Both the position numbers and the translations under genes were made by a program. Below the pieces are notes generated by a model. The model was not told the origin of the DNA. It was given only the letters and a program-made list of their open reading frames with translations, and did no database searches. Shown here piece by piece: positions 8,499 through 55,362 of a stretch of DNA of 57,479 nucleotides. The DNA comes from a virus. The first letter of the stretch is position 1. The number at the start of each line of letters is the position of its first letter. The stretch lies in IMG/VR virus record IMGVR_UViG_3300036790_000341, positions 1 to 57,479 of that record. The stretch is one strand, 5' to 3'.

Positions 8499-8532
8499 GG
8501 TCGGGCACGCGGCGGTCCCTGCGTGCCCGACC
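8499..8532 (-). other. Perfect 12-bp hairpin after tRNA-Asn
   Basis: GGTCGGGCACGC (8499-8510) pairs perfectly with 8521-8532 across a 10-nt loop, 3 nt from the 3' end of the tRNA. With the hairpin at 8456 it forms a tandem pair, unlike any other intergenic gap in the window. It may terminate part of the small-RNA transcript. Confidence 0.6.
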
Positions 8533-8535
8533 TGG

Positions 8536-8608: not shown

Positions 8609-8649
8609 TCCGTGGGACGGAGGGCCGGGCGGGTCAAGGTGGTGGCGAC

Positions 8650-8686
8650 CGGTATATAAGTGCTTTGCCAATTAAGCTACGCCCCT
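8650..8686 (-). pseudogene. 5' half of a tRNA
   Basis: The minus strand reads AGGGGCG (acceptor 5' strand), TA, then a perfect D-arm GCTT-AATTGGCA-AAGC, followed by ACTTATATA. No T-arm or matching 3' acceptor strand follows. It directly abuts the tRNA-like RNA at 8687. It is either a decayed tRNA or a deliberate half-tRNA. Confidence 0.55.
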
Positions 8687-20880: not shown

Positions 20881-21984
20881 ATGAAGATCGCAGTCACGGG
20901 TGGCGCCGGTTTCATCGGCGGCCACGTGGTGGACGAGCTGCTGCGGCGGGGCCACGAGCCCGTGATCTTCGACCACCGGGCCAAGCACCACGCTGTGCCG
21001 GATCACCCGGACCGGTACCTGCCGAGCATGTTGGGCGACACGCGGGACGAAGTCCAGGTCACCGAGCTCGCCGCGCACGTCGAGGGCATCATCCACCTCG
21101 CCTCCGTGCTCGGCACGCAGGAGACCGTGGCCAACCCGCGCCCGGCCGTGATGACCAACGTCATCTCCGGCATGAACGTGTTCGAGGCCGCAGTGCAGTA
21201 CGGCATCCCCGCGGTCAACATCTGCGTCGGCAACGCCGGCATGTCCAACCCCTACTCGGCCAGCAAGACCTGTGTCGAGTCGCTCGGCCACATGTACGTG
21301 CGGGATCGGGGCGCGAAGCTCAACCAGGTGCGCGTCGTCAACGCGTACGGGCCGCGGCAGCTGATGGCCAACCCGTACGGCGTCGGGAAGGTCCGCAAGA
21401 TCATGCCCGCGTTCGTGGCCCGCGCGCTGACCGGCCAGCCGATCGAGATCTACGGCGACGGCGAGCAGGTCTCCGACTGCGTGTTCGTCACCGACGTCGC
21501 CGCCGCACTGGTCAACGCCCTCGAGTTCGCGGCCCAGGGCACCGTCCTGGACCACGTGGTCGAGGTCGGCCCGACCGAGCACATGACCGTGAACGAGGTC
21601 GCCCGCATGGTCGCCCAGCTGGCGCGACCCGAGAACGGCGGACACGAGTCCGAGATCGTCCACCTTCCGATGCGGCCGGGCGAGACGCCGGGCGCGCGGA
21701 TCGTCGCGCGCAACGAGACGATGCACGACATCGGGATGCCGCCCGAGTACCTCAAGCCGCTCAGCCACGGGATCGCCGAGACGGTGGCCTGGTACGCCGA
21801 GCACTGGCTGCCCCAGTACGTGGGGCACCTCCAGTCGATCCACCCGAGCGGCAGGACGCCGCAGGAGAAGGCATTCCTGGGACGGACCTACAACGCCTTC
21901 TCGAACGGGGCCAGCCACCAGGACGAGCCGGTGACCAACCTCACCGGCGACCTCGGGAGCGCCAAGATCACCCGGCATGGCTAA
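20881..21984 (+). CDS. NAD-dependent sugar epimerase/dehydratase
   Basis: 367 aa SDR-extended enzyme. The NAD-binding GGAGFIGG lies at residues 7-14 and the active-site YSASK appears in SNPYSASKTCVE. Later landmarks are typical of UDP-glucose 4-epimerase-like enzymes (VRVVNAYGPRQ, IEIYGDGEQVSDCVFVTDVA). It makes an activated sugar for the two transferases that follow. Start ATG 20881 has a GAGGAG site. Substrate not predictable. Confidence 0.92.
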   Translation: MKIAVTGGAGFIGGHVVDELLRRGHEPVIFDHRAKHHAVPDHPDRYLPSMLGDTRDEVQVTELAAHVEGIIHLASVLGTQETVANPRPAVMTNVISGMNVFEAAVQYGIPAVNICVGNAGMSNPYSASKTCVESLGHMYVRDRGAKLNQVRVVNAYGPRQLMANPYGVGKVRKIMPAFVARALTGQPIEIYGDGEQVSDCVFVTDVAAALVNALEFAAQGTVLDHVVEVGPTEHMTVNEVARMVAQLARPENGGHESEIVHLPMRPGETPGARIVARNETMHDIGMPPEYLKPLSHGIAETVAWYAEHWLPQYVGHLQSIHPSGRTPQEKAFLGRTYNAFSNGASHQDEPVTNLTGDLGSAKITRHG

Positions 21985-23029
21985 GGGCTGGTTGTGGGCT
22001 GCGGACGCAGGCGGGTGCGGCTGGTACCGTACGGTCATCGTCGCCGAAGCACTCCGCGGCCTCGGCCACGACGTCGGCCAGGGCATCACGATCGACGACG
22101 ACTACCAGGACGCCGACGCCGTCCTCGGCCAGCGCATCTGCATCCCCGGATCCTCGATCGCCTGGGCGCGCTGGAACTTCCAGCACGAGAAGACCACCGT
22201 CTTCGACGCCGACGACGACTACTTCCACATGTACCAGCACCCCGAGTTCGGGCCGGCCGCAGTCGAGTACGGCAATTCGCGCGTCCAGGCGCGGCTCCTG
22301 GCCAACGCCGCCAGCTCGACCTACACCACCTGCGCCACACCCAGGATCGCCGAGGCGTTCGCCCCGTTCTGCGACAACGTCCTCGTCGTGCCGAACGGGC
22401 TGCCCGAGAGGTACCTGGAAGTCGACGCCCCGTACGAGCGGCGGCGGTACAACCCCGAGACGCACCAGTACGACGACGGCTACACCTCACCGGCCCCGCC
22501 GATCGTCGGGTGGGCCGGGTCGTCGTTCACGCAGTGGGAACTGACCACCACCGTCAAGGACGCCCTGTCCCGGGTGGACGAGTGGGGAGGCCGGCTGCAC
22601 GTCGTCGGCGTCCCCTACCCGATCATGCGCAAGACCGGTCTCGTCAAGCCCGGCGTCTCGGTCACCGGCTGGATCGACGGCACCCACAAGTACCTCGACG
22701 CCATCGACTTCGACATCTGGGTCGCCCCCTACCGGCAGAGCGACTACAACAACGCCAAGGTGGCGACCAAGGCCCTCGAGGCCGCGTTCCTCGGCATCCC
22801 GATCGTCGCTTCCGCCACCACCCCCTACCGGCACTTCGTCCAGGACGGCGAGACCGGATTCCTCGTCGAACCCGGCGGCGACTGGGAGACCCCGATCCGC
22901 ACGCTGATCAACGACCCGGCGCTGCGCGAGTCCATGGGCCGCGCCGCCCGCGAGAACGCCCGGGAGTTCACCATCGAGAAGCTGGCCGCCCAACTCTGGG
23001 ACCCGATCCTGTTTGGAGACCGCAAGTGA
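21977..23029 (+). CDS. GT-B glycosyltransferase (GT4-like)
   Basis: 350 aa. Start overlaps the epimerase by 8 nt. Rossmann-type halves are seen in CGWYRTVIVAEALRGLGHDV and PPIVGWAGSS; the donor-site pattern KALEAAFLGIPIVASATTPY with GETGFLVEPG is characteristic of GT-B retaining transferases. It probably transfers a sugar to a phage protein or a host surface glycan. The neighbours are an epimerase and a second transferase. Confidence 0.88.
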   Translation: MAKGWLWAADAGGCGWYRTVIVAEALRGLGHDVGQGITIDDDYQDADAVLGQRICIPGSSIAWARWNFQHEKTTVFDADDDYFHMYQHPEFGPAAVEYGNSRVQARLLANAASSTYTTCATPRIAEAFAPFCDNVLVVPNGLPERYLEVDAPYERRRYNPETHQYDDGYTSPAPPIVGWAGSSFTQWELTTTVKDALSRVDEWGGRLHVVGVPYPIMRKTGLVKPGVSVTGWIDGTHKYLDAIDFDIWVAPYRQSDYNNAKVATKALEAAFLGIPIVASATTPYRHFVQDGETGFLVEPGGDWETPIRTLINDPALRESMGRAARENAREFTIEKLAAQLWDPILFGDRK

Positions 23030-29157: not shown

Positions 29158-30423
29158 TCACCGGCGGATGCCCTGCACGAGCTCGGACGGCGTGGCGATG
29201 TACTGGTTGTACAGGTCCGTGGCGGTGTCTCCGGTGACGGCGCCGGTGCCCCCCACGACGGCGCCGATGAAGGCGTCCATGGCCAGCACGCTGGCCGACG
29301 AGCTCAGGCCGCCGTTGGTCGTGTCGGCGGTGGTGGTGAGCGCGCTCCCGAGGATGTACTTGTTGCCGGCCGCGTCGTTCGATGTGGCCGTGATGTACGC
29401 TCCGGAGCCGCCCGTGGTGCCGTTCTCGGTCGTCCCACGCACCACCTTGAACTGGCCGGCGATCTGGGACTGCAGGTACAGCTCGACATGCCGCGCGCCG
29501 CGCCGCAGCGTCAGGTCCCCGGTGACCCGCACCAGGGACGCGGTAGACCACAGCAGCCGGGCGACGACCATCTCGGGCTCGTTGCGCAGCAGCGAGATCC
29601 CGAGCGGCACCCCGAGGGTGGTTCCCGCGAACCTCAGGTCCCATGTCTTGGCCTGGTAGGCGCCCGACCCGGAGGTGTAGCTGGCCACGTTCAGCACGCC
29701 GCCGGAGGACAGCGGCGTGATGTTGATCAGCCCGTTGCTCAGAGCCCAGTTCGCCGGGGTGGCGGGGCTGAACAGGACGCCGGAGCGCTCGATGCTGTTG
29801 CCGTCCAGGAACTTGACCCGGCCGCCCAGGTAGTTGCCGACCGCGCACCCCCACCTGGGGATCGTGGACTGCGCGGTCGGCAGGTTCAGGTACACGACGT
29901 GCGCGCCGTCCAGGCCGATGCGGGTGACCACGGTGGGGGTGTTGCCCTGCGCCGAGAAGTAGGCGTAGTGCCCGATCGACGGACTGTGCCAGCGCACTCC
30001 CGTGATGGCGAACATGTTGTTGCGGGTGGTGCCGGTCATCCGGGACTCGATGTCGACCTCGAGGTCCGTGCCGATCCGGTTGAGGTCGGCCTTCCAGGTC
30101 AGGGTGACCGACTCGCCCTCCCAGTTCTGCAGGTCGGCCGAACTGTCCGACACGATGTAGTAGCCGTTCAGCTCCGCCTTGTCCGAGAACACGACCGGGA
30201 TGAACGACGAGGCGGACCCCATGCCGAGCAGGTCGGCCTGGCGCGCGGAGAGCTGCGCGGCCGTGGAGCCCGCGAAGTCCGGCAGCGACTCCTGCCCGCT
30301 CAACGCCAGGGTGTGCCCGGTCGGGGCCGTGCTGGTGGGTGCCGCGGCCGCGGGGGAGGCGACCATGGTGGGGAGTTCCACCAGGCTCAGGCGTCCCAGT
30401 GTGATGCTGCCGAACTGGGTCAT
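29158..30423 (-). CDS. Minor (distal) tail protein
   Basis: 421 aa, ATG 30421-30423 sharing a base with the tape measure stop. It is beta-rich throughout (ESVTLTWKADLNRIGTDLEV, ARHVELYLQSQIAGQFKVVR) and lies directly after the tape measure gene, the standard place of the distal tail protein. The C-terminal part (MDAFIGAVVGGTGAVTGDTA) is Gly/Ala-rich. Named from position and composition. Confidence 0.75.
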   Translation of the reverse strand: MTQFGSITLGRLSLVELPTMVASPAAAAPTSTAPTGHTLALSGQESLPDFAGSTAAQLSARQADLLGMGSASSFIPVVFSDKAELNGYYIVSDSSADLQNWEGESVTLTWKADLNRIGTDLEVDIESRMTGTTRNNMFAITGVRWHSPSIGHYAYFSAQGNTPTVVTRIGLDGAHVVYLNLPTAQSTIPRWGCAVGNYLGGRVKFLDGNSIERSGVLFSPATPANWALSNGLINITPLSSGGVLNVASYTSGSGAYQAKTWDLRFAGTTLGVPLGISLLRNEPEMVVARLLWSTASLVRVTGDLTLRRGARHVELYLQSQIAGQFKVVRGTTENGTTGGSGAYITATSNDAAGNKYILGSALTTTADTTNGGLSSSASVLAMDAFIGAVVGGTGAVTGDTATDLYNQYIATPSELVQGIRR

Positions 30424-33400
30424 CAGCTGGTGTCCCTGTCTACCTGGAGCAGTGCGTCGCGGATCTGTCTCGCGTAGAGCTTGGCGTTGGCGTCGAGCGA
30501 GTTGGGCTTGCTGAAGTCGGCCAGCATCTTAGCGTCGATCTTCACGGTGAGGTTCTGGATCGTGATGCCGGCCGAGCCGCCGGGGGCGGAGTTGCCGACG
30601 CGGTTGGTGATCGAGTTCAGGTTCTTGTCGACGGTGGCGCCGGCGGGCAGGTACAGGGCTTCGGGGCCGCGTTCGCCGACGACGACGACGCCGGCCTGGG
30701 TGGTGGTGCCGCCGTCGGCGAGCTGCGGGATCTGCGGCACTCCGATGGTCCAGCCGCCGAAGTGGCCGAGGGGGCCGAGGTCGATGGACGGCATCGTGAA
30801 CTGCAGGCCGTCCCAGCCGCGGATGACCATGTCGATGGCGCTCTTGAACCCGTCCCACACAACATCCCACATACCGGACAAAGCGGACGTGATGTCGCCC
30901 GGGATGCCGCGCAGGAAACTCGTCAGGTCGTTCCAGTAGCCCTTGATGTGGGTCAGGAACGTCTCGATGCTGGATGCCGCCTGCTCGACTTCTCCTGTCA
31001 TGGATGTAATGAACTTGACAAGCTCTTGGGTGGCGGGCCCGACCACGTAGTCGATCAGCTTTCCCAGCCACACCAGCAGGCTCGTGATCGGCGGGATCAG
31101 CACCTGCAGGACGGTGACGCCCAGCTTCGTCAGGATCCCCTCGATCGGCTCCATGGCGATCGCGAAGTTGAGGAAGTCCTGGATCAGCGGCAGCAGCACC
31201 GGCAGCAGCTGGATCATGGCGGCGACGATCTGCAGCACCACCGGGATCAGCATCTGGATTTGGGAGGCCAGCTGCGCTCCGATGATGTTGGCCAGCTGGA
31301 CCATCAGCGGGATCAGCGGCTGCAGGACCGACTCCATCGCCGTCAGCAGGATCTCGACGACCTGCATGATCGGCGGGATCAGCGGCGCCGCGGCGCGCAC
31401 CAGGTCGCCGATCACGTCGACCACGGTGACCAGGATCGGCGACAGGTCCTTGATCACCGGCAGCAGTGCGGCCATCAACACGTTGACAACCTGGTCGAGG
31501 ATCGGACGCAACGCCGTCAACGCCGGCCCCAGCGCCCCCGACACGGCACCGACCAGCGTGCCGATAGGACCGAGGAGATCGCCGACGAATCCGAGCACAG
31601 CCTGGATCGAGTCGCCCGCGCCGGACGCGTTGTCGGTCAGGCCCACGAACAGCTGACCCAGCCCCGACAGGATGTCCACCAGCCCGGACCCGAGGCCGCT
31701 CAAGATCGGACCGGCGGAGTTCGCCGCCGTAGTCAGTCCCTGGAACAGGTCGAGGACACCCGGGAAGACCTGCGCCAGGAACCCGAGTCCCTCCTTGAGG
31801 ACGTTGAAGAACTCCTTGACGAACGACTGGTTGGTGAACAGCCCACCGATCTGGGCGACGAACCCGCCCATCTCCTGCCCGGCCGCACCGAACATCGTCT
31901 TGATCTCGGGCAGGATCGGCTCGATGTCCTGCAGGAACTTCAGGACACCCGGCAGGAACGAGTTCTGGGCGATCGTGTCGAACCCGGTGAACATGGACTT
32001 GAGCATGTTCACCACTTCGAGGCCCACCGGGGTGAGCTTCGACAGGGCGCTCGCGGCCGCGCTCGCCCCACCGGCGCTCTGGCTCGCCGCCGCCGCCGCG
32101 GCCAACGCCTGCGACTTGTAGGTGTCGGTCAGGTTCTGCTCGGCCTTGGCCACGGCCTGCGCGGACTGCTGCGCCTGATAGGAAGCCTGCTCCTGAGCCG
32201 CGGCCTGAGCACGCTGGGCGTTGCCCACCGCCTGCACCGCCTGCTGGTACGAATACTCGGCCTGCACGACCGAGGGCAGCCCCGTCACGCCCTCCTGGTT
32301 GGCCGTGTTGGCCGACTGGGTCGCCTCGGTCGAGCGCTGCTTGGCATCGGTCAGAGCCTGCTCCGCGTCGACCAGGGCCTGCTGCGCCTGCTTCTTCTGG
32401 ATGTCGGTCGACAGCGAGTTCGCCATGACCGCGGTCAGGCTCTGCTGCGCCTGCTCGACGTTCAACTGGGCGTCCGACACCCCGTTGGCCGCGTCGGCCG
32501 CCGAGTTGTTCAGGTCCGCGATCTGGTTGGCCGCGTCCACCTTGGCCTGAGCCATCGCCGTAGCGGCCTGCCCGACCTGGTACTCGGCCTGCTGGACCTG
32601 CTGGTCGGCCGAGATGATCGAGTTCGCGGAGGACACGGCGGCCTGTGCGGCCTGCTGCTTGGCCTGCACGATGGCCTGCTCGGCCTGGGTGATCGCCTGC
32701 GCGTTCTGGAACGCGGTCTGCGCCGCCTGCGCCGCCGTCGTCCCCGCGGCTCCCGCAGCGGCCGGGGCAGCCGACAGGGCGCCCATCACGTCCTTCAGCG
32801 CCATGAACGCCGCGCCGAGCCCCATGGTCAGGCCGCCCAGGATCGCGGGCAGCGCGGCCAGCGCCGGAGCCAGCGCCACCGCCGCACCGATCAGGCCCAT
32901 CATCACCGAAGACAGGCCGCCGGCGTCACCCGCCGCGCCCTGCGCCGCGCCTCCCGTGCTGCCCAGGGAGTTCACCAGCTGATCCATGGACTGGGACAGC
33001 GACTCGGAGCTGGACCGGTTGCCCTCCATGGAGCTCCGGCTATCGTCGAGCGCTCCCCCGAGGTCGTCGAGCGCGGCGCGAGAATCGCCCATGGACGACC
33101 GCATGTCGCCCATCGAGTAGGTCAGGTCGTCGATGGAGTTGCGCAGCTCGGAGAACCCCTCCGAACCGCCCATCTCGTCGGCCGCGGCCTTGACGGCCTC
33201 TTCCTCCGCAGCCAGCTCGGCCAGCTTCGCATCGGCGTCGGCAGTATCGACGTCGACCTGGATCTTGGCCTCTTCTTGGAGCTCCTCCATCTCGGTCTTG
33301 ACCTCGGCGACGGCCTCCTGGCCGTTGATGGTCAGGCCGACCTCGACGCTCTCGCCCTCGGCCGCCTCCTTGGTGGCGGCCTCGACCTCCTCCTTCAGCC

Positions 33401-33551
33401 CGGTGTTGTCGGCCGCGATCCGGACCGACATCGTCTGGCCCTCGATGGCCTCGGCCAGCATCTGCTGGACCTGCTCGCGCAGGCCGTCGTCCTTCGCTCC
33501 GAGCTGCACGTAGGCAGTGGCGATCTGGAAGCCCTGTCCGTCGTCGCTCAC
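30423..33551 (-). CDS. Tape measure protein
   Basis: 1042 aa, start GTG 33549-33551. Long Ala/Gln-rich coiled coils (about residues 270-500: QAAQTAFQNAQAITQAEQAI), then hydrophobic segments (about 500-880: LVTVVDVIGDLVRAAAPLIP) and a C-terminal TTQAGVVVVGERGPEALYLP motif typical of siphovirus tape measures. It sets tail length; with the usual 0.15 nm per residue the tail would be about 150 nm. It follows the frameshifted chaperone genes. Confidence 0.92.
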   Translation of the reverse strand: MSDDGQGFQIATAYVQLGAKDDGLREQVQQMLAEAIEGQTMSVRIAADNTGLKEEVEAATKEAAEGESVEVGLTINGQEAVAEVKTEMEELQEEAKIQVDVDTADADAKLAELAAEEEAVKAAADEMGGSEGFSELRNSIDDLTYSMGDMRSSMGDSRAALDDLGGALDDSRSSMEGNRSSSESLSQSMDQLVNSLGSTGGAAQGAAGDAGGLSSVMMGLIGAAVALAPALAALPAILGGLTMGLGAAFMALKDVMGALSAAPAAAGAAGTTAAQAAQTAFQNAQAITQAEQAIVQAKQQAAQAAVSSANSIISADQQVQQAEYQVGQAATAMAQAKVDAANQIADLNNSAADAANGVSDAQLNVEQAQQSLTAVMANSLSTDIQKKQAQQALVDAEQALTDAKQRSTEATQSANTANQEGVTGLPSVVQAEYSYQQAVQAVGNAQRAQAAAQEQASYQAQQSAQAVAKAEQNLTDTYKSQALAAAAAASQSAGGASAAASALSKLTPVGLEVVNMLKSMFTGFDTIAQNSFLPGVLKFLQDIEPILPEIKTMFGAAGQEMGGFVAQIGGLFTNQSFVKEFFNVLKEGLGFLAQVFPGVLDLFQGLTTAANSAGPILSGLGSGLVDILSGLGQLFVGLTDNASGAGDSIQAVLGFVGDLLGPIGTLVGAVSGALGPALTALRPILDQVVNVLMAALLPVIKDLSPILVTVVDVIGDLVRAAAPLIPPIMQVVEILLTAMESVLQPLIPLMVQLANIIGAQLASQIQMLIPVVLQIVAAMIQLLPVLLPLIQDFLNFAIAMEPIEGILTKLGVTVLQVLIPPITSLLVWLGKLIDYVVGPATQELVKFITSMTGEVEQAASSIETFLTHIKGYWNDLTSFLRGIPGDITSALSGMWDVVWDGFKSAIDMVIRGWDGLQFTMPSIDLGPLGHFGGWTIGVPQIPQLADGGTTTQAGVVVVGERGPEALYLPAGATVDKNLNSITNRVGNSAPGGSAGITIQNLTVKIDAKMLADFSKPNSLDANAKLYARQIRDALLQVDRDTS

Positions 33552-43712: not shown

Positions 43713-44759
43713 TCAGAGGTTGATGTTGCCGGAGTTGTCCTCGTGGACCGAGAACGCCGCCTCGTGGCCGACGGCGAACGCGCGTCGGGCGCGGAGCTTG
43801 AGGATCGACTCGTCGGTCAGTGCCGCCAGGCCGTTGCGGCCGTCGATGAACACCGACTCCGGGCCGGACCGGCGACCGACGATCATGTAGTTGCGGTTGG
43901 CCCACGTGAGGAGCGGGTTGCCGGTCGGGGTGGGCGTCGCGGTGGCGGAGCCCATGTTGCCGAGCGACCAGTGGATCGGGATCCCGAAGATGGTGTCCGG
44001 GGACGCGGCCATACCGCCGCCGGGGAAGCCCGCGGTGGATTCCTGGAAGATCGGCCGGTTGTTGGTGTCCTTGATGTTGCGGAGCAGGTTGCGGTACGCC
44101 GGGTGGGCGATGCACACCATCTCGGAGATGTCGAAGTAGTTGCCGCGCTCGACGTTGCCCAGGGACTGGGACAGCGACGCGTACGTGGTGCCCGCGGACC
44201 CGGTCTGGGTGAGGTTCGCGTTGCCGGTGTAGCCGGTGTTGGAGTCGGACTGGGTCAGCGCGTAGTACACCGAGGTGAACGGGACGCCGACGCCGGGGGC
44301 GGCCGACACGGCCAGGCACGCGTTGTCGAAGATCTTCCCGTAGGAGGTCGCCCAGTCCTTCTGCTTCGTGGCGATGACGTCGGCGATCGCGTCGTCGATG
44401 TCCTCTTCCGCGATGCGGACGGCCTGGCCGAACTTCTGCGCGGTGAGGATCACGGAGTCGTTGACCGACTGGTCCTCGTTGTAGGTGCCGCCCTTGGCGA
44501 CGAGGCTGACGCCCACGCCGGCCGAACGCGGGACGCTGCGGGTGTCGGAGTTCATCGGGACCGGGGATCCGAGCGCCTCGACGCCGGAGATCTGGTTCAC
44601 CCGCATGATGACCTGCGAGTCGAACTCCTCGGGGATCCACGCGTCCATCACGTCGCGGGCGCCGCCCGCGATGGCGTAGATCGGCTTGCCGAATGCTGTG
44701 TGGCCGAGCAGCGTCTTGGGGGCGATGCCCGGTCCCGACAGCAGGTTTGCGCGGAGCAT
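43713..44759 (-). CDS. Major capsid protein (HK97 fold)
   Basis: 348 aa from ATG 44757-44759 with AGGAGG. Typical features: an extended N-arm (MLRANLLSGPGIAPKTLLGH), IPEEFDSQVIMRVNQISGVE, a long helix region (RIAEEDIDDAIADVIATKQK) and a P-domain end (RSGPESVFIDGRNGLAALTD, ILKLRARRAFAVGHEAAF). It follows the scaffold gene and has its own promoter candidate. No protease is evident. Confidence 0.9.
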   Translation of the reverse strand: MLRANLLSGPGIAPKTLLGHTAFGKPIYAIAGGARDVMDAWIPEEFDSQVIMRVNQISGVEALGSPVPMNSDTRSVPRSAGVGVSLVAKGGTYNEDQSVNDSVILTAQKFGQAVRIAEEDIDDAIADVIATKQKDWATSYGKIFDNACLAVSAAPGVGVPFTSVYYALTQSDSNTGYTGNANLTQTGSAGTTYASLSQSLGNVERGNYFDISEMVCIAHPAYRNLLRNIKDTNNRPIFQESTAGFPGGGMAASPDTIFGIPIHWSLGNMGSATATPTPTGNPLLTWANRNYMIVGRRSGPESVFIDGRNGLAALTDESILKLRARRAFAVGHEAAFSVHEDNSGNINL

Positions 44760-44844
44760 GCCGCGGCCTCCTGGGGATGTGGGGTGGGGTGGACTGCATC
44801 GACCGATCCAGGTCTTACCCACCCGCATCCGCAGGCTGAGGCCT

Positions 44845-44871
44845 ATGTTACCGCTTTTGTGCTGTTGTCAA
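44845..44871 (-). promoter_or_regulatory. Probable capsid gene promoter
   Basis: Minus strand TTGACA (44866-44871) with TAACAT (44845-44850) 15 nt away, or ACATAG at a 17-nt spacing. It lies 86 nt upstream of the capsid start in the 136-nt scaffold-capsid gap. The -35 is perfect; the -10 choice is unsure. Confidence 0.6.
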
Positions 44872-44895
44872 CCAGCGTGGGGCATATCAGTGTTT

Positions 44896-45753
44896 CTATC
44901 GGCCGGACAGGACCTGTGCGGCGATCTGCTCGGCGGAGGAGCGGGGGCGCTCTTCGGCTTCCGCGCGGGCGGAGCCGTTGACGCGCGGCGGGGGGGTGCG
45001 CTTCTTGGACTTCTCGGGCTCCGGGGCCTTGAACAGCTGCGGCAGCTCGGCCTTGAGGGTCTCGATCTGCTCGTCCAGGCCGGCCGTGATCTCGCCTTCC
45101 TCGTCGATCTCGATCTCGTCCAGGTCGAGCAGTCGCACGAGGCGTCCCATGTTGGTGGCCTGGACGCCGGAGCCGGACAGGGCGGCGCGGGCGGCCTGGT
45201 TGACGGCCATGGAGCGGAACCTGGCGGACGCGGCCTGCTCGCCGTCGCGCTTCGCGGTTTCGGTCAGCTGCTTGACCTGCGCCTTGGTGAGGAGCCCTTC
45301 GGGGATCTTGGGTGCGTCGGGCGGGACGGCGGTGGTGGTGGTGCGCACGCCGGCCGGGGTGCCCTTGCGCTTCTTGCCGATCTCCTCGACGACGGTGGTC
45401 GCGGTGCCGCCGCCCTGCTTCTCCAGCAGTTCCCGGCGCTCTTCGGCCGCCTCGTATTCGGCGAGCCTCGCTTGGAGGTCGGCGGTTTCCTTGTCCTTGG
45501 CGGCCAGGGCCTCGCGGCGCTGCTTGGCCGAGCCGTTCGACTTGGACAGGGCGGCCTGGACCTTGAGCCATTCGGTTTTGGACGGGGCCTGCCAGGCGTC
45601 GCCGGTGCCTTCGCCTTCGGTGCCGCCTTCGCCTTCGTCGGAGGGTTCGATCTCGATGTCGCCGGAGCCGCCGGCGATCTGGTGGATCGGGTGTCCGTCG
45701 CTGCGGTAGCCGAGGATGGTGGGGGGGGCGGGCATCAGGCGGGTGATCTTCAC
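44896..45753 (-). CDS. Scaffolding protein
   Basis: 285 aa from GTG 45751-45753. Acidic, coiled-coil protein (KDKETADLQARLAEYEAAEE, LDEIEIDEEGEITAGLDEQI) with a basic C-terminus, directly before the capsid gene, as expected for scaffolds. Its N-terminus (ILGYRSDGHPIHQIAGGSGD) resembles the N-arm of the capsid protein (LLGHTAFGKPIYAIAGGARD). Confidence 0.85.
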   Translation of the reverse strand: MKITRLMPAPPTILGYRSDGHPIHQIAGGSGDIEIEPSDEGEGGTEGEGTGDAWQAPSKTEWLKVQAALSKSNGSAKQRREALAAKDKETADLQARLAEYEAAEERRELLEKQGGGTATTVVEEIGKKRKGTPAGVRTTTTAVPPDAPKIPEGLLTKAQVKQLTETAKRDGEQAASARFRSMAVNQAARAALSGSGVQATNMGRLVRLLDLDEIEIDEEGEITAGLDEQIETLKAELPQLFKAPEPEKSKKRTPPPRVNGSARAEAEERPRSSAEQIAAQVLSGR

Positions 45754-45815
45754 GTTGGCTCCCAGCCGGGATAGCGACCTATGCGCATCTGCGCATTAAC
45801 GCAACTTTACAGCGG

Positions 45816-46943
45816 TCACCGGCGCGCGGCACGCCGGCGAGACGGATGGATACGGTTGTCGAAGCTGCCCTTCGCCACAGCCCGGTGGCCGCGCTCCTCC
45901 ACCGACTTCGGCAGCCCGGCCCCGCGCTGAAGCAGCCGGGCCGCCGCATCCAGGCGCACCGTGCTCGACTCGCTGGGTAGCGACCAGCCGTAGACGACCG
46001 ACCGCTTCGCCTCCCTGCGCAGCGCCGCGGGCAGGTCGACGTTCGCACCGACACCAGGACGGTTGTACAGCGCGTTCTCCTCCGGACCCCCCACAGGCAC
46101 GTGCGGACCGAACCACAACTCCGGATGACACCGGCAATTCGGGTGAGCCGGGGGACCCATCAACGGCTGTCCAGGTGGCCAGACGTCGGGTGCCGACCCG
46201 GGTCTGCCGAACGTCGCCTCCTCGTCGAATCCCTCACCAGACATCGGATCGATCAGATGCCCTGATAGCGCTAAACAACGGACGCACGCGTCCGGTTCTG
46301 CGATCCAAAGCAGCGACGCGCCCTTGTTGACGGCGACCTGCCGGATCGCGTCCGAGCTCGCCTTGTTCACCGCCCACGTAGACGAACGCTCCAGACTCGT
46401 CGCGGCCTGGTTCGCGTGGCCCATCGCCTTGACGAGGTCGTCCCAGCCGGTGATCGGGAGCTGCTCGGCGAACGTCGTGGTGTCGGCCACGGACTGGGCC
46501 ATCGCGGTCGGGACGGCTTCGATCGCCTGCGTCAGCACGGTGGGCAGCTCGATCGTGTCCGCGGCCACGGGGTCGGGCAGGTGCCGGTTGGCGTATTCGA
46601 GGCCGCGCACCGCGGCCCGGGCGGCGAACTCCTCAAGTTGCGGCGTCGGGTCGTAGGTCGCGACCGCCTGCAGTTCGGTGACGAGGATCTGCACGAGCTG
46701 CTGCGCTTGAACCGGATCGGCGGGACGCTCTAGTCCGCCGAACATCAGGACGTACCGGCCGGCGAGCGTGCGGAAGATGTTGGACAGCAGCTGCCGCAGC
46801 GGTCCGGAGACGGCGGTGATGGCCTGCTTCTCCAGCAGGAGCAGCGCGGCCACGGCCGCCGCGTTCTCGACCGTGACCGCGCTGACCGCGGCCTGTTCCG
46901 CGCTGCTGTTGCCGGCGGTGTTGACCTGCGGCTGCTCGCTCAT
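45816..46943 (-). CDS. MuF-type capsid maturation/head morphogenesis protein
   Basis: 375 aa. The helical N-terminal part is followed by the MuF core WAVNKASSDAIRQVAVNKGA, AEPDACVRCLALSG and PPAHPNCRCHP. MuF proteins join portal and capsid assembly and sometimes carry toxins; no extra toxin domain is seen, and the last 70 residues are basic. The 62-nt gap that follows holds two TGCGCA hexamers. Confidence 0.88.
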   Translation of the reverse strand: MSEQPQVNTAGNSSAEQAAVSAVTVENAAAVAALLLLEKQAITAVSGPLRQLLSNIFRTLAGRYVLMFGGLERPADPVQAQQLVQILVTELQAVATYDPTPQLEEFAARAAVRGLEYANRHLPDPVAADTIELPTVLTQAIEAVPTAMAQSVADTTTFAEQLPITGWDDLVKAMGHANQAATSLERSSTWAVNKASSDAIRQVAVNKGASLLWIAEPDACVRCLALSGHLIDPMSGEGFDEEATFGRPGSAPDVWPPGQPLMGPPAHPNCRCHPELWFGPHVPVGGPEENALYNRPGVGANVDLPAALRREAKRSVVYGWSLPSESSTVRLDAAARLLQRGAGLPKSVEERGHRAVAKGSFDNRIHPSRRRAARR

Positions 46944-46958
46944 CGCGCTCCTGCCGGG

Positions 46959-47183
46959 CTACTTGCCCTTCTTGGGCGCCGCCGTCTTCTTGACCTTCGC
47001 TACCGGGTGCTTGTCGACGGTGCCGTTGTCGTGCTTGACGGTGACCGTGCCGGCGGCGACCTTCGTCACGGTTCCCTTGTTGCCCTTCGGGTCGACCACG
47101 CGGGTGCCGGTGCCGATACCGCCCGCGGCCTTGGCCTTCTTGATGTTCGCCAGGAACGCGGGGGGCAGGCTCTTCTTCGCCAT
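46959..47183 (-). CDS. Small Lys-rich protein
   Basis: 74 aa, MAKKSLPPAFLANIKKAKAA onward. A short KOW/SH3-like core (GTRVVDPKGNKGTVTKVAAG, TVTVKHDNGTVDKHP) with Lys-rich ends. Placed between portal-linked genes, it may bind DNA or be a virion component. Function unknown. Confidence 0.65.
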   Translation of the reverse strand: MAKKSLPPAFLANIKKAKAAGGIGTGTRVVDPKGNKGTVTKVAAGTVTVKHDNGTVDKHPVAKVKKTAAPKKGK

Positions 47184-47196
47184 GGGTCGATTCCTC

Positions 47197-47475
47197 TCAG
47201 TACATCTTCGACGGTGCGGGGGTGCCCTTCGGCGGGTCGACGGTGCGCTGCCCCGGCGCGACGACGTGCCCGGCCGGCGACGGCCCGGCCATGTCGGACG
47301 TCGCCTTGGGCCGGCCGAGCGTGGCGCCCATGCCCGCATCGGCGCCCTTGGCGGTCGAGCTCGTGATGTCGGGGTGCCGGGCGCCCGGCGCGAGGACGGG
47401 ACCGCCCTGGCCGGCGCCGTGCAGGAGGTCGGCGTCGCTGGGGGCGGACTTCGAGTATCCGTCGGCGGCCATCAT
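47197..47475 (-). CDS. Small flexible protein after the portal gene
   Basis: 92 aa, low-complexity Gly/Pro/Ala/Asp-rich (GQGGPVLAPGARHPDITSST). ATG 47475 or 47472 overlaps the portal stop. Such short disordered proteins often follow portal genes in actinophages. No function can be given. Confidence 0.6.
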   Translation of the reverse strand: MMAADGYSKSAPSDADLLHGAGQGGPVLAPGARHPDITSSTAKGADAGMGATLGRPKATSDMAGPSPAGHVVAPGQRTVDPPKGTPAPSKMY

Positions 47476-49109
47476 GCTGTCCCTTGGTCGAAGGTGGTGG
47501 AGCGTTCTTCGGGCAGTGCCAGAATATCCGTGATGATCTTGTTGACCTGTTGCGGGTCGAGCGCGCCCAGATTCGCCGCGGTACCGAGGGCCTGTGCGGC
47601 GGTCGCGACCTGCGTGAGGATCTTCACGCGCTGCTCGAGGTCGTCGCCCTGGTACGGCAGCCACGCGTCGACCTGGTCGTCCTCGTACCCGGCCTCGAGC
47701 AGCGTCTGCCTGGGCGGTACGCCGAGGTTCTGCTTCAGGCCCATCATCTGCCAGCCGGCCAGGTCGTCGATCGTCGCGCCGGGGGTCCATCGGATGATGG
47801 TGTTCGGCTGGACGATGCGGCCGGCCTGGGCGTCGTCGTCCCAGGTCGCGACTTTCAGCGCGAACGCCATGACGTCCGTCCAGCCGCGGCCGTAGGTGAT
47901 CTGGCGGCGGCGGACGCGCTTGAGGAGCGGGACCTCGGCGGCGCGGATCGACTCGCCGGACGGGGGAAGCCGCGTGTAGGTCTGCGGGTCGAAGTAGTGC
48001 AGCGGTGTGGAGGTGACCTGCGCCATCATGCGGATGTACACCTCGAGCGGCGCGAGGAACACGGCCGGGTCGGGCGGGTTGAACTGGCCGGCCTGCCGGA
48101 CGCCGTTGAGCCACCACACCTCGCCGGGGCCTGCGCGCAGCGTGGAGTCGTGGCCGGTGTCCTCGAACCGGTTGATGTCGTCTTCGGTGTCGAAGTCGGC
48201 GAGCTCGTCGGAGCCGTGCTGCGTGTCCGAGAGGAGGTACCGCTGGGGGAAGCCGTAGTAGTCGATCGTCGCGGCGTGCGTGATGATCAGCTTGTTGACG
48301 GCGTCCTGGGGGCCGTAGGCGGCGCGGTGCTCCGGGTCGCCGTAGGGGATGCCGGTGCGGAAGTGGAACACCGGGATCTCGCCGAACGGGTTCGCGACCG
48401 GCCAGCCCTCGTCGCCCTCGTCCTGGAACTGGATCCAGTCCCGGCGGTTGTTGCCCTTGGAGTTGGGGGTGGTGACGTACTTCTCGATGCGGTCCTGGTA
48501 GTACAGGTTGACGCGGGTGGGGGGCTTGGCCTTGATGCCGAGCTGCGCGGGCATCGTCCACTTCTTGACCGCGAACTTCTTGTACAGCGGGTTCTCGGTG
48601 TCGTAGACGATGCGGGTGGTCTTGGGGCTGTTGTAGAAGATGTCGACCTGTTGGAAGTCGAGCTGCTGCTCGTCGGCGAGGTCTTCGGGCTGCATGTACG
48701 GGTTGTCTTCGACGGTTTCGGAGCTCGGCCAGACGATCATGTAGGCGTCGCCGAACTCGCCCGCGCGCCGGTGGATGTTGGTGGACTCGAGGTCCATCAT
48801 GTTGCGTTCCCAGATCTTCTGCAGGATCTGGTCTGCCTCTTCGTCGTCGGCGACTTGGACGGCGTTGATCTCGAGGCGGTCGGCCATGACGTCGACGGGG
48901 GTCTTGGCGAGGTTGAACCGGAAGGTGATGCCGGTGCGCTCGAGGGCGCGGCGCAGGCGGATGGAGGCGAAGAACTCAGGGTTCGTCGCTTCGTAGTACA
49001 TTTCGGCGCGGTGGTAGTCCGGGAGCGAGTTGGCGAGGGCCTGGAGGCCTTCCATCAGGTCCGGGTTGCCGGCGAGGGTCGGTTGTAGGGCGCTGTTGTC
49101 GCCGGCCAC
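47472..49109 (-). CDS. Portal protein (SPP1 gp6-like)
   Basis: 545 aa from GTG 49107-49109 (AAAGAGGTG site). Recognisable portal features: IRLRRALERTGITFRFNLAK, GDAYMIVWPSSETVEDNPYM, WTMPAQ...VNLYYQDRIEKYVT, FRTGIPYGDPEHRAAYGPQD, LTQVATAAQAL near the end. It is the first gene of the structural operon. Unusually no terminase gene lies next to it; plus-strand cargo follows instead. Confidence 0.9.
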   Translation of the reverse strand: MAGDNSALQPTLAGNPDLMEGLQALANSLPDYHRAEMYYEATNPEFFASIRLRRALERTGITFRFNLAKTPVDVMADRLEINAVQVADDEEADQILQKIWERNMMDLESTNIHRRAGEFGDAYMIVWPSSETVEDNPYMQPEDLADEQQLDFQQVDIFYNSPKTTRIVYDTENPLYKKFAVKKWTMPAQLGIKAKPPTRVNLYYQDRIEKYVTTPNSKGNNRRDWIQFQDEGDEGWPVANPFGEIPVFHFRTGIPYGDPEHRAAYGPQDAVNKLIITHAATIDYYGFPQRYLLSDTQHGSDELADFDTEDDINRFEDTGHDSTLRAGPGEVWWLNGVRQAGQFNPPDPAVFLAPLEVYIRMMAQVTSTPLHYFDPQTYTRLPPSGESIRAAEVPLLKRVRRRQITYGRGWTDVMAFALKVATWDDDAQAGRIVQPNTIIRWTPGATIDDLAGWQMMGLKQNLGVPPRQTLLEAGYEDDQVDAWLPYQGDDLEQRVKILTQVATAAQALGTAANLGALDPQQVNKIITDILALPEERSTTFDQGTA

Positions 49110-49199
49110 CCGGACACCTCTTTCGTCTGCGCATATTCGTACATGGCCAATTGAACCACCTGGGGAGGCCTGTGGCCACGGGCGACCCGACACGCCTAC

Positions 49200-49228
49200 T
49201 TGACAGGGGGGCAAGATGGGTGTGTGAT
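49200..49228 (+). promoter_or_regulatory. Promoter, shared phage type
   Basis: TTGACA (49200-49205), 17 nt, TGTGAT (49223-49228). The spacer GGGGGGCAAGATGGGTG matches the shared pattern. It drives the right-hand plus operon; no equally clear minus promoter for the portal was found in the same 184-nt gap. Confidence 0.75.
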
Positions 49229-49293
49229 GGTCCACGGAAACACCAGCCGGAACCGATCCGGCCCGGGCCACACCGACAACCCTGGAGACGACC

Positions 49294-49968
49294 GTGAACA
49301 ACCCCGACCCGAACCTGCCTCCGACCGGCTACAGCCACACCCCGGCCTGGGACCACGCCCAGAACAGCGTCTGGAACCAGGCGACCCCCACCGGACAGCC
49401 GCCCTGGGCGCGGCCCCCGCAGCCCGGCTACCCCGCGCAGCCCCAGTACGCCCCGTACCAGCCGCCGCGGCCGCCGAAGAAGCACACCGCGCGCAACATC
49501 GTCCTCGGCGTCCTCGGCACCCTCCTCGTGATCATCGTGGCGTCCGCCGTGGCGGCCGGCGGCAAGACCCCCAGCACCGGCACCACGGCCAGCAGCCCCG
49601 GCACGAGCGCGCCGTCGAGCGCGCACGCCGCACCGGCGCCTGCCCCGGCGACCAAGGCCCCCATGCCCTCCCAGGTGACCTTCGCGTGCACCGGCAGCGC
49701 ACCCGACGGAATCAACATCACCTACGGCCCCGAAGGCACCAACGACTCCGCGGGCAGCCTGCCGTTCACGAAGACCGTGCCGCTCGACTCCGGCGCTCCC
49801 TACTACAACGTGACCGCCCAGCTGTCCGGTTCGGGCCACGTGTCGTGCACGACAGTCGTGGAATGGGACGGCCAGTCAGTGACCCAGTCGGGCTCGGCCA
49901 GCGGCGGCTACAACATCGCGTCCGCCGAAATGTGCTCCGCCTTCACCGGCGGCTGGGAGAAGTGCTGA
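49294..49968 (+). CDS. MmpS-like single-pass membrane protein
   Basis: 224 aa from GTG 49294 (GGAG site). A Pro/Gln/Tyr-rich cytoplasmic start (QPGYPAQPQYAPYQPPRPPK), one TM helix (NIVLGVLGTLLVIIVASAVA), a Ser/Thr/Ala linker and a beta-rich outer domain with three cysteines. This layout is common in actinobacterial MmpS-like or DUF4190-type proteins and suggests a host-derived cell-surface protein. It is first in the cargo operon with the polysaccharide synthase. Confidence 0.75.
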   Translation: MNNPDPNLPPTGYSHTPAWDHAQNSVWNQATPTGQPPWARPPQPGYPAQPQYAPYQPPRPPKKHTARNIVLGVLGTLLVIIVASAVAAGGKTPSTGTTASSPGTSAPSSAHAAPAPAPATKAPMPSQVTFACTGSAPDGINITYGPEGTNDSAGSLPFTKTVPLDSGAPYYNVTAQLSGSGHVSCTTVVEWDGQSVTQSGSASGGYNIASAEMCSAFTGGWEKC

Positions 49969-50027
49969 CCGCCGAACCGCGTCCGGAACCGACCACCGCC
50001 AGCTAGCCGCAAATCAGGGGGAGAACC

Positions 50028-51701
50028 GTGTATCCGTCCCATGGCGCCGACAGCCTTGCCGACACCATCACCCTTCCAGCCGTCCCATTCCACGGGAGCG
50101 CCATCGAGACCGTGAGCCCCTCGCGCGTGGCAGTCGCAGCCCCCACGCGCCGCCGTGACCGGCGCGACACCAACCCGCTGCCCGCGTGCCCCACGGACGC
50201 CGAGACGCACCTGTACAGTCGGCGTCGCTACTATCCCGTCGCGGCCTTTTCCGCGATCTCCTTCGCGCTCCTGGCCGCATCGCAGAGCCGCTTCATCCTC
50301 ACCGCCGATTGGGCCTGGGCGCTCGCCCCGTTCTTCACCTTCACCACGGCCTACTTCCTCCTGGCTGGCTGGGTCAACCTGGGCACCCGCGACTTCAACC
50401 GCGACGCCCACGACGAACTAGTCCACCAACACACACACACACCCGCGCCTTCCCTCGACGTGTTCCTGCCCGTCTGCCGCGAACCCGCGGCCGTGCTGCA
50501 CAACACCTGGACCGGCGTCTTCGAGCTCATGGAGGCCTACCGCGGCCGCTGCAACGTCTACGTCCTCGACGACGGCGCCGACCCAGAATGCGCCCGCATG
50601 GCCGGTGACTTCGGCTTCACCTACCTCGCGCGCCCCGAAAAGGGCTACGCCACCAACTACCGCGGCTGGTACAAGAAAGCCGGCAATCTGCGCCACGGCT
50701 TCGCCCACTCCGATGGCGAGTTCATCCTCGTGCTCGACGCCGACTTCAACCCCCGCGCCGACCTTCCCGACCACCTGCTGCCCTACCTTATCGACGACCC
50801 GCAGCTCGGGATCGTCCAATCCCCGCAGTTCTTCCGCACGCACCGGGGCCAAACCCGGATGGAGCGCGGTGCCAGCGCCGTCCAGGAGCTCTTCTACCGC
50901 ACCGTGCAGGTTTCCCGGGACCAGCGCGGCGGCGCCATCTGCGTCGGCTCCTGCGCGATCTACCGGCGCGAAGCTCTCGAAGCGAACGGCGGGGCGACCC
51001 TGATCGGCCACTCCGAGGACGTGCACACCGGCTTCGACCTACGCCGCCAGGGCTGGGGCCTGCGCTACCTGCCGGTGCCGCTGGCCACCGGCGTGTGCCC
51101 CGACAACCCCGACTCGTTCTTCGCCCAGCAGTACCGGTGGTGCATGGGTTCGATGGCCCTGCTGTGCCATCGCCGCTTCTGGAAGCACCGCATGCCGCTG
51201 CGCACCCGCGCCTGCTACGTCTCCGGGTTCTGCTACTACGTGCACACCGCCGTATCCACCCTCGTGACGCCCGTGATCCCTTTGGTGATGCTCCTGGCGA
51301 TCCCCGGGCACGTGCGCCTGGTGAACTACGCCTACATCGCTCCGTCGATGCTCTACAACCTCCTGATCTTCCCGCTCTGGCACCGCTGCCGCTTCGGGCC
51401 CTCGGCGTACATGGCGAAGCTGCTCTACGGCTGGGCCCACCTGTTCGCTCTCATCGACCTGCTGCGCAGGCGCCCGATGGGCTGGAAGCCCACCGGCGCC
51501 GCTGGCGCGGCCCGGCGCAACGGGCGCCTGTGGGCCGGCATGTGGGGCTGGTCGGTCTCCACCGGACTGGCGTGGACCGGGATCGCCGCATGGCGCACCA
51601 CCACCGAAGGCATGCGGTTCGCGCCCATCACGCTGCTCGGCGCCCTCACCCTCTGGATCACGCTGCTCGCCATCGCCTCCCGGAAGGGGGAAGCCCGATG
51701 A
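50028..51701 (+). CDS. Processive GT2 polysaccharide synthase (CslA/BcsA-like)
   Basis: 557 aa from GTG 50028 with AGGGGGAG. All four signature sites of processive beta-glycosyltransferases are present: D in VLDDGAD (181-183), DAD (237-239), ED in GHSEDVHTG (330-331) and QQYRW (367-371). Two TM helices precede the catalytic domain and about four follow. It should make and export a beta-linked glycan at the host membrane. No PilZ domain is present. Its start-stop overlap with the GH26 gene says the two act together. Very unusual cargo for a phage. Confidence 0.9.
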   Translation: MYPSHGADSLADTITLPAVPFHGSAIETVSPSRVAVAAPTRRRDRRDTNPLPACPTDAETHLYSRRRYYPVAAFSAISFALLAASQSRFILTADWAWALAPFFTFTTAYFLLAGWVNLGTRDFNRDAHDELVHQHTHTPAPSLDVFLPVCREPAAVLHNTWTGVFELMEAYRGRCNVYVLDDGADPECARMAGDFGFTYLARPEKGYATNYRGWYKKAGNLRHGFAHSDGEFILVLDADFNPRADLPDHLLPYLIDDPQLGIVQSPQFFRTHRGQTRMERGASAVQELFYRTVQVSRDQRGGAICVGSCAIYRREALEANGGATLIGHSEDVHTGFDLRRQGWGLRYLPVPLATGVCPDNPDSFFAQQYRWCMGSMALLCHRRFWKHRMPLRTRACYVSGFCYYVHTAVSTLVTPVIPLVMLLAIPGHVRLVNYAYIAPSMLYNLLIFPLWHRCRFGPSAYMAKLLYGWAHLFALIDLLRRRPMGWKPTGAAGAARRNGRLWAGMWGWSVSTGLAWTGIAAWRTTTEGMRFAPITLLGALTLWITLLAIASRKGEAR

Positions 51702-52684
51702 AACACCGCCGCACCGCGGGCGCCGTCATCCTGCTCACGCTGCTCGGCGCCACCGGCTGCCACGCGCGGCAGCCGACGCCGCATACTGTGCACCAGGCTG
51801 CTGCCAGCATCCTCGCTTCCGCCAGTCCCGCTGCCTCGGCGAGCATCCTGGCAGCAGCACCACCCGCCGCGTCTGTCCTGGCGCCGGACGGGAAGTACCT
51901 GGGCGTCGCCGAGCCCTCGGCCGCTGCCGTGAAGGCTTTCGGCACGGCCACCGGGACAGTCCCCGACATGGTCGAGCAGTACATCGGATGGGGCGCCAAC
52001 GTTCCGGCCCTACCTGGTAGCGAGCTGCCGCTGCTCTCGTGGATGTCCACCGGCGACCTCGCGGCAATCGCCGAGGGCGCTGACGACGCCTACATCACGC
52101 GCGTCGCCGGGCAGATCCGGGCGCACGGCGCTGCGGTGGCGCTGACCTTCGACCACGAGTTCAACGGCGACTGGTATCCCTACGGCACCCAGGCGGATAG
52201 TGCGGCTGAGTTCGTCGCCGCGTGGCGCCACGTGCACGACCTGTTCGCCTCGGCCGGGGCGGTGAACGTCGTCTGGGTGTGGACGCCCAACGTGGTCAAT
52301 CCGATGCCGGCCGTGCAGCTCGCCCCGTACTGGCCCGGAGCCGCGTACGTCGACTGGGCCGGGATCGTCGGGTACTGGACCGGGGAGCTCGGCGAGGATT
52401 CCTGGTCGACGCTCTACGGCCCCACCGAGCAGCAGATCGAGGCCGTCACACCCGACCCGATCCTGATCGTAGAGACCGGTGCGGCGCAGGGCCCGCAGAA
52501 GGCCGGTTGGGTCACTGCGATGCTCGCCGGGCTCGCCGCCGATTCGCGGGTGGTGGGGATGGTGTATTTCGACTACGGCACCGCGCAGGGCAAACGCGCC
52601 GACTGGACCCTGCAGGACGATCCTGCGGCGCTCGCCGCATACCGGGCCGGAGCCGCACAGCTCCAGCTCGCCCGTATCCCCTAG
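51698..52684 (+). CDS. GH26-like secreted lipoprotein glycosidase
   Basis: 328 aa. A signal peptide ends in the lipobox LGATG-C21, so the enzyme would be anchored outside the membrane. The GH26 fold is marked by the acid/base E154 in TFDHEFNGDWY and the nucleophile E259 in ILIVETGA. GH26 enzymes cut beta-mannan or beta-1,3/1,4-glucan. Coupled by ATGA to the synthase gene, it probably trims or releases the glycan, as endoglucanases do in cellulose operons. Confidence 0.85.
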   Translation: MKHRRTAGAVILLTLLGATGCHARQPTPHTVHQAAASILASASPAASASILAAAPPAASVLAPDGKYLGVAEPSAAAVKAFGTATGTVPDMVEQYIGWGANVPALPGSELPLLSWMSTGDLAAIAEGADDAYITRVAGQIRAHGAAVALTFDHEFNGDWYPYGTQADSAAEFVAAWRHVHDLFASAGAVNVVWVWTPNVVNPMPAVQLAPYWPGAAYVDWAGIVGYWTGELGEDSWSTLYGPTEQQIEAVTPDPILIVETGAAQGPQKAGWVTAMLAGLAADSRVVGMVYFDYGTAQGKRADWTLQDDPAALAAYRAGAAQLQLARIP

Positions 52685-54825: not shown

Positions 54826-55034
54826 AGCGACCGGTCCCGCTGCTCCTCGAAGTCGAAGGCGCCGGCCTCTACAACGGCTGGAACGTGAAGCTCAACGGCG
54901 TCCCGATGTACCACAAGCCGTATGACGGCAGCGACGACGAGGAAGCCGCTGAAGAGTTCCTCACCGCGCTCGGCGCGCTGATCCGGCGCGAGGCTGGCTA
55001 CCCGCTCCTGGAGGATGGGGATGACCATGGCTGA
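54822..55034 (+). CDS. Small acidic protein
   Basis: 70 aa from GTG 54822 (GTGA overlap). VPLLLEVEGAGLYNGWNVKL and an acidic helix DGSDDEEAAEEFLTALGALI. Net negative charge is high, a feature of phage proteins that block host DNA-binding proteins, but nothing more specific is seen. Confidence 0.65.
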   Translation: MKRPVPLLLEVEGAGLYNGWNVKLNGVPMYHKPYDGSDDEEAAEEFLTALGALIRREAGYPLLEDGDDHG

Positions 55035-55362
55035 TTTGGGCGCTTTCCTGACCGCCCGCTACGACGAGCGCCAGTACGCGGCCGAAGCGGCCGAACGCAC
55101 GGGCCGGTGGGAAGACCTGGCGTGGCCCGGCTCGTACGGCATCATCGAGGCGGTGGCGACCGAGCACATCCTCGCGTGGTCGCCCAAGTTCGTGCTCGCC
55201 GACATCGCGGCTAAGCGAGACATCCTGAACCACTGCCAGGTGATGGCCGCGCACGCGGTGCCAGGTTCGGCCATGGCGCAGTTCTGCAAGAACATCCTGC
55301 GCGCCGCCGCCGCGCCGTACGTCGAGCATCCCGACTTCCAGCCCGAATGGAGCGTGGCCTGA
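55021..55362 (+). CDS. DUF6221-like protein
   Basis: 113 aa from ATG 55021 (GGAGG site; ATGs at 55015 and 55027 are alternatives). The sequence MADLGAFLTARYDERQYAAE, LADIAAKRDILNHC and the ending APYVEHPDFQPEW match the actinobacterial DUF6221 family, in which a pattern of AKRxIL and HPDYxPEW is typical. Found in Streptomyces genomes and phages; function unknown. Confidence 0.75.
   Translation: MTMADLGAFLTARYDERQYAAEAAERTGRWEDLAWPGSYGIIEAVATEHILAWSPKFVLADIAAKRDILNHCQVMAAHAVPGSAMAQFCKNILRAAAAPYVEHPDFQPEWSVA

Follow-up and report, generated by a model that had tools for sequence, protein, structure and literature searches.

The window analysed here, the whole stretch of 57,479 bases, is an IMG/VR virus record without end repeats. 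Its sequence is that of an actinophage-like contig, putatively from a virus of soil actinobacteria. Leftwards from 49.2 kb its minus strand carries, in order, the genes for portal, scaffold, HK97-type capsid and tape measure proteins (Table 1), and the nearest capsid and portal proteins are those of Streptomyces phages, Zuko and KimJongPhill among them (capsid 52%, portal 35-37%). (The head genes at 43713-49202 also resemble those of MiniFlayer and Mulchroom, which are small satellite phages; portal 33-40%.) Four closely spaced plus-strand genes, on the strand opposite to the portal gene, begin 91 bp from its start: a leader gene, a GT2 synthase gene, a GH26 hydrolase gene and a probable fourth member of the operon. 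GC content and codon pattern are uniform across the window. At its right end the contig breaks off within a gene, where there is a 12-bp tandem repeat, and no terminase gene was found in it; the record is therefore incomplete at the right. A search of this incomplete contig found no integrase either. Elsewhere it encodes a Ro60/TROVE RNA-binding protein with a vWA domain (6698-8671), with two tRNA genes (Asn, Thr) overlapping or flanking the 5' end of that gene, and another glycosyltransferase, GT4-like (21977-23029, plus strand; phrog_7162), lying among minus-strand genes.

Table 1. Features of the window, left to right, with the basis of each assignment
Feature	Coordinates	Strand	Basis
Tape measure protein	30423..33551	-	phrog_4197, 5e-56
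Major capsid protein	43713..44828	-	Pfam Phage_capsid, 1e-14; 52% to Zukovirus MCP
Head scaffolding protein	44896..45753	-	phrog_194, 3e-14
Portal protein	47472..49202	-	Pfam SPP1_portal, 4e-12; 37% to Zukovirus portal; exact start uncertain
Leader gene: single TM helix at residues 69-87 between a proline-rich N-terminus and an extracytoplasmic domain of ~100 aa	49294..49968	+	TM helix by hydropathy
Predicted GT2 polysaccharide synthase of the processive type; BcsA-like core, PilZ domain absent	50028..51701	+	motifs, Pfam, BcsA alignment
Probable lipoprotein GH26 hydrolase, CtLic26A (lichenase) type	51698..52684	+	Pfam, CtLic26A alignment; E154, E259
Probable fourth operon gene: one TM helix, long Ala/Pro/Ser/Thr stalk, short C-terminal cysteine-bearing segment	52715..53374	+	
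DUF6221 protein, right flank	55015..55362	+	Pfam, 4e-22
12-bp tandem repeat inside the gene at which the contig stops	57299..57479	.	right end of record

The synthase gene (557 codons) has a GTG start and a strong GGGAG ribosome site, and the GC content of its codon positions is gene-like (GC2 0.52, GC3 0.91). The 328-codon GH26 gene overlaps it at an ATGA, and the ribosome sites of both genes are good. These are not chance open reading frames. A complete synthase with DDG, DAD, ED and QQYRW motifs had been predicted at this position, and its coordinates and motifs are right: alignment with BcsA puts the motifs at D181 D182 G, D237-A-D239, S329 E330 D331 and Q367 Q368 Y369 R370 W371. The protein matches GT2 families of Pfam (Glyco_trans_2_3, E 3e-17) and the BcsA structures (E 2e-31). 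A structure model of moderate confidence (pLDDT 58, from an alignment of three sequences only) shows a GT-A fold flanked on either side by helices, which Foldseek matches best to BcsA and then to plant CesA. The D,D,D,QxxRW motifs and the TM helices around the GT-A domain assign the protein to the processive GT2 enzymes of the BcsA/HAS class, and an xWxPTG segment conserved after the TM helices may correspond to the gating loop of BcsA.

The synthase is not a member of the bacterial cellulose synthase (BcsA) equivalog: it scores 156.8 bits against TIGR03030, whose curated cut-off is 699.1; a Pfam search finds no PilZ match in it; and its neighbours, the GH26 gene and uncharacterised genes, include no BcsB partner. 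For these reasons the product is a predicted one only. The original prediction had called the enzyme "CslA/BcsA-like", of which the BcsA half is upheld by the motifs and structure matches. The CslA half is not. GlxA is the partner that marks CslA, and in two Streptomyces genomes the GT2 whose gene lies ~3 kb ahead of that for a GlxA-type protein (PF09118) was taken as the presumed CslA. This GlxA-adjacent GT2 is 28-29% identical to the window synthase, as against 53-54% for the GT2 that is partnered with GH26; the presumed CslA is a distant paralogue.

The prediction of a secreted GH26 enzyme with both catalytic glutamates, overlapping the synthase, also holds. The protein passes the gathering cut-off of Pfam PF02156 (31.1 vs 20.2 bits), and its catalytic residues E154 and E259, invariant in 17 relatives, align with E109 and E222 of CtLic26A, the GH26 lichenase also known as Clostridium thermocellum endoglucanase H. 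Its N-terminus (...LLTLLGATGC) holds what reads by eye as a lipobox-like Cys, and it is probably a lipoprotein. CtLic26A is the closest solved structure, alignable across the whole domain at 29% identity (phmmer 2e-31). A GH26 family profile finds CtLic26A at 5e-54, next a beta-1,3-xylanase at 8e-17 and mannanases from 5e-15; Foldseek matches follow suit (CtLic26A 4e-23, mannanases about 3e-11). At HE minus 3, where mannanases (R197 of BoMan26B, in the -1 subsite) and CtLic26A share an arginine, the window enzyme has Thr150. The mannanase reading is disfavoured by the profile, by the fold and by this Thr. In sequence and fold the hydrolase is closest to CtLic26A, yet it is missing the shared arginine and has no close characterised relative, and activity on (1,3;1,4)-beta-glucan, like the detail of its substrate, is a matter of prediction. 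CtLic26A also differs in being cellulosomal, whereas the window enzyme is a probable membrane lipoprotein.

The leader protein matches no Pfam family even at E 1, and a search of 50,697 phage records returned no match. The operon had been described as led by an MmpS-like surface protein; a proline-rich single-TM protein does precede the synthase, but its identification as MmpS or MmpS_C is dropped, neither family matching at E 1. Its C-terminal 99 aa are 88% identical to the protein encoded directly upstream of a GT2-GH26 pair in another viral contig, L089. The same domain recurs (78%) in the 202-kb phage record L092, about 60 kb from the GT2-GH26 cassette of that record, and because of this distance the link of the leader gene to cassette function is weak. 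The product of the fourth gene matches no family. In build it resembles the C-terminal extension of the synthases of three phage records (L090:7785-9803, L091:7914-9920 and L092:7830-9794), which are NodC/HAS-like enzymes with a C-terminal TM helix and a stalk of ~100 aa rich in Ala, Pro, Ser and Thr; in the window it stands alone.

Records L089-L092 came from a scan of viral contigs for GH26. All four have a GT2 gene directly upstream of a GH26 gene whose product is 50-57% identical to that of the window; all four carry terminase genes, and L089 a capsid gene as well. The GH26 proteins of the window, of L089-L092, of Actinospica and of one other actinobacterial chromosome form a clade (support 100/99). 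In contrast, the synthases of L089-L092 belong to a separate and distant GT2 clade, closest to NodC and the chlorella-virus hyaluronan synthase, which also includes the gp79 protein of Kromp, a temperate Streptomyces phage that is in culture. One clade of GH26 accompanied by two very different synthases implies that the substrate is not readable from the synthase alone. L089 has the same leader-GT2-GH26 gene order as the window, and its DNA matches the window at 49268-49308, 49449-49998 and 52058-52665, that is, on both sides of the synthase gene and nowhere across it. Divergence from L089 is unequal (dS 0.28 for the leader gene, 0.75 for GH26), and exchange of the synthase was therefore not a single recent clean event. 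A search for the window portal in L089-L092, run without a positive control, found no homologue, and for that reason the phages that share the cassette seem to be unrelated. On these comparisons the cassette appears to move between otherwise dissimilar phages, its leader gene and GH26 being conserved and its synthase exchanged. Presence of the genes in other phages of the group had been proposed as a check: they recur, with a different synthase, in the four terminase-bearing records of unrelated phages, and are missing between the terminase and portal genes of Zuko, KimJongPhill and Wentworth. Flanked by phage genes, placed on the opposite strand and patchy among relatives, the gene set has the layout of a phage moron or auxiliary gene cassette. 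PADLOC gave no match of the cassette to a known defence system.

Bacteria pair this type of synthase with this hydrolase, as had been claimed: a scan of bacterial genomes for the synthase yielded 79 loci, nearly all actinobacterial, and in 74 of these a GH26 gene lies directly downstream. The host loci that were examined are exopolysaccharide-type clusters, often with a GT39-like gene and sometimes with a gene for a UDP-sugar dehydrogenase (two clusters). Chromosomal GT39-like/GT2/GH26 clusters of Actinospica, Streptomyces, Micromonospora and Streptosporangiaceae share the adjacent gene pair with the window (synthase 50-65%); the phage copy differs from them in being without the GT39-like gene, in having the phage leader gene instead, and in adjoining a portal gene. 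The closest relative is Actinospica acidithermotolerans (synthase 65%, GH26 58%). Phylogeny of both proteins, which had been proposed as a check, places the window synthase as sister to that of Actinospica (support 100/100) and its GH26 in the clade of phage records and Actinospica already described. The chromosomal GT2-GH26 clusters of actinobacteria are the probable source of the phage genes, and the cassette would have been acquired from such hosts long ago (dS about 0.73), with its catalytic residues intact. (At a Streptosporangiaceae locus, L006:3278-6275, a single synthase gene is followed by three GH26 genes in tandem. Another record listed as viral, L002 or IMGVR_UViG_2930438282_000003, was set aside as support from phages: it matches no terminase, portal or capsid family, the neighbourhood is that of an exopolysaccharide cluster, and it is treated as host-like, probably an actinobacterial chromosome and a false viral call.)

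The reading that we favour, at a probability of about 0.68, is that the window carries a phage-borne exopolysaccharide cassette, derived from the host GT2-GH26 pair, with which a polymer of beta-glucan type would be made and trimmed and the host surface altered. It presupposes that the genes belong to the phage. Might the cassette instead be host chromosome, or part of an assembly chimera, with its junction to the phage contig at about 49.25 kb? The terminase gene that precedes the portal gene in Zuko, KimJongPhill and Wentworth is missing here and the cassette is oriented oppositely, the nearest relative of the synthase is a host gene, and genes to the right of the cassette have few matches in phage databases. 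However, the independent phage contig L089, with its capsid and terminase genes, has the same gene order and DNA homology flanking the synthase, the window GH26 groups with four phage records, the sampled host copies have a GT39-like gene upstream and not the leader gene, and GC and codon pattern are uniform. Such a join is accordingly given very little credence, and the original view of a phage gene pair rather than host contamination is sustained by the portal gene 91 bp to the left, with the head genes beyond it, and by L089.

The polymer might be something other than a beta-glucan (a beta-mannan, a glucomannan or an amino-sugar or uronic-acid polymer), with the GH26 matched to it. Most characterised GH26 enzymes are mannanases (PMC6556568), the synthases of the sister cassettes are NodC/HAS-like, and UDP-sugar dehydrogenase genes occur in the two host clusters and in another phage contig, L086. 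Profile and structure nevertheless place the window enzyme with CtLic26A, far from the mannanases, Thr replaces the mannanase arginine 197, and the window synthase is BcsA-like; a non-glucan product is unlikely, though of the alternatives it deserves the most serious consideration. It is more doubtful still that the GH26 serves mainly as a depolymerase, clearing host exopolysaccharide for the release of progeny, with the synthase carried along as a passenger or serving the fitness of the host. In some viral contigs that encode GH26 relatives (L099, L100, L152 and others) no GT2 is seen nearby, but most close phage relatives of the GH26 have a GT2 directly upstream, and the window enzyme is translationally coupled to its synthase and resembles a cell lipoprotein, not a tail protein. 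Nor does it seem at all probable that the product, rather than being a free polymer, is a precursor used to decorate the virion or wall glycans. Zuko and KimJongPhill, relatives by head lineage, have sugar-nucleotide and glycosyltransferase genes upstream of terminase; against this, no ligase or acceptor gene lies nearby, and processive synthases of this QxxRW class make long chains and export them, as is established for BcsA and HAS.

How an exopolysaccharide cassette of this kind might work can be laid out in four steps. The synthase would polymerise a UDP-sugar, most likely UDP-glucose, the chain leaving through the enzyme's own TM channel. Outside the membrane the lipid-anchored GH26 would trim, detach or edit the chain; endoglucanases process the chain in this way in cellulose operons. 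The two single-TM surface proteins may assist at the wall, or may be co-expressed surface modifiers. Finally, and this is the least certain step, the polymer would alter the surface of infected or lysogenic hyphae, the most plausible benefits being that receptors are masked against other phages or that aggregation or attachment is changed. A beta-glucan, cellulose-like or (1,3;1,4)-linked, is preferred to a mannan as the predicted product because the GH26 fold is of the CtLic26A type. BcsA with BcsZ, and the CslA-GlxA-CslZ system of Streptomyces, likewise combine a synthase with a secreted beta-glucanase, and the window synthase has all the catalytic motifs of BcsA; the window system differs in that its hydrolase is GH26 rather than GH8 or GH6 and in having neither PilZ nor BcsB. 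Of two published systems that were considered, the wps-1 cluster of Actinoplanes missouriensis has both GT2 and GH26, but its paper, according to which no such GH26-bearing cluster had been characterised before, predicts a cluster of Wzx/Wzy type; the paper on the (1,3;1,4)-glucan synthase of Romboutsia ilealis does not mention GH26 and argues neither for nor against a mixed-linkage polymer.

The chloroviruses provide the nearest viral analogy. The hyaluronan and chitin synthases that they encode give infected algae a coat of polymer (PMC5408694), and those of PBCV-1 and CVK2 are, like the window synthase, virus-encoded processive GT2 enzymes with an extracellular polymer as product (predicted, in the case of the window). 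The reference list of PMC5408694 cites genome rearrangements through which chloroviruses switch between making hyaluronan and making chitin, and the exchange of synthases in the actinophage cassette closely resembles this. The differences are that chloroviruses are giant viruses of a eukaryotic alga and have no coupled hydrolase lipoprotein, and that the window synthase is BcsA-like and not HAS-like. Virus-made hyaluronan can block the attachment of other viruses, but the authors of PMC5408694 think it unlikely that the gene exists for this purpose and offer alternatives, clumping among them. Because of their doubt, modification of the host surface by the polymer is rated as probable and any specific benefit as less so. 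A bolder construction is a mobile actinophage glycan cassette in which a conserved exit module (leader and GH26) is combined with interchangeable synthases that switch the coat of the host, the window product being a (1,3;1,4)-beta-glucan or cellulose that excludes rival phages; we regard this as speculative, and as clearly less likely to be right than wrong.

Other phages have synthase genes of their own. Five contigs of Gram-negative-type phages (GC 38-53%, most with terminase, portal or capsid genes) encode CesA-like synthases without GH26: L084:9635-11578, L085:9618-11407, L086:324-2375, L087:2254-4052 and L088:3839-5619. Directly before each of these synthases is the gene of a small secreted protein of ~105-148 aa, in every case with Trp as its last residue (KLW, KVW or TLW), and the pair looks like a synthase with a small partner of outer-membrane type. 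Just upstream of the L086 synthase lies the C-terminal end of a UDP-glucose 6-dehydrogenase-like protein (L086:16-327; GGTCFPKD), hinting at a polymer of uronic acid. In Caudovirales GX15bay (MK557849) a GT2 gene is followed by GH26 genes (annotated "endoglucanase" and "mannanase"), the synthase being of another clade; Kromp gp79 is a processive-type GT2, also of another clade, without GH26; and the "putative cellulose synthase" of Synechococcus phage S-CBWM1, of another clade again, is paired with a gene whose annotation is that of an efflux-pump membrane protein. These cases, few as they are, suggest the hypothesis that phages carry synthases together with an export or processing partner that fits the envelope of the host. 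(The Zuko lineage has a sugar gene pair upstream of terminase; Zuko gp4, L133:1319-2380, is annotated as UDP-glucose dehydrogenase and reads like an RmlB-type dTDP-glucose 4,6-dehydratase.)

Already known are the polysaccharide synthases of the chloroviruses and the annotated GT2 genes in the public records of GX15bay, S-CBWM1 and Kromp. In the open-access literature no paper was found on phage synthase-GH26 pairs, nor one on the host chromosomal GT2-GH26 pair, and the exchange of synthases within a phage cassette appears to be undescribed. Phage enzymes that break down capsules or modify O-antigens are familiar, whereas phages that build a new polymer on the host are, to our knowledge, little known. 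In the present case unrelated actinophages share a complete synthase-hydrolase pair whose synthase is of one or the other of two unrelated types, and synthases of related or other clades are found also in Gram-negative-type phage contigs, in a cyanophage and in a cultured temperate Streptomyces phage. The phage cassette gives clues to the substrate of a gene pair that is widespread in the hosts. By analogy with the algal chloroviruses, it suggests that bacterial viruses, too, may coat their hosts with virus-made sugar polymers, and the question that the chloroviruses pose, why a virus should pay to sugar-coat its host, becomes testable in bacteria by ordinary genetics.
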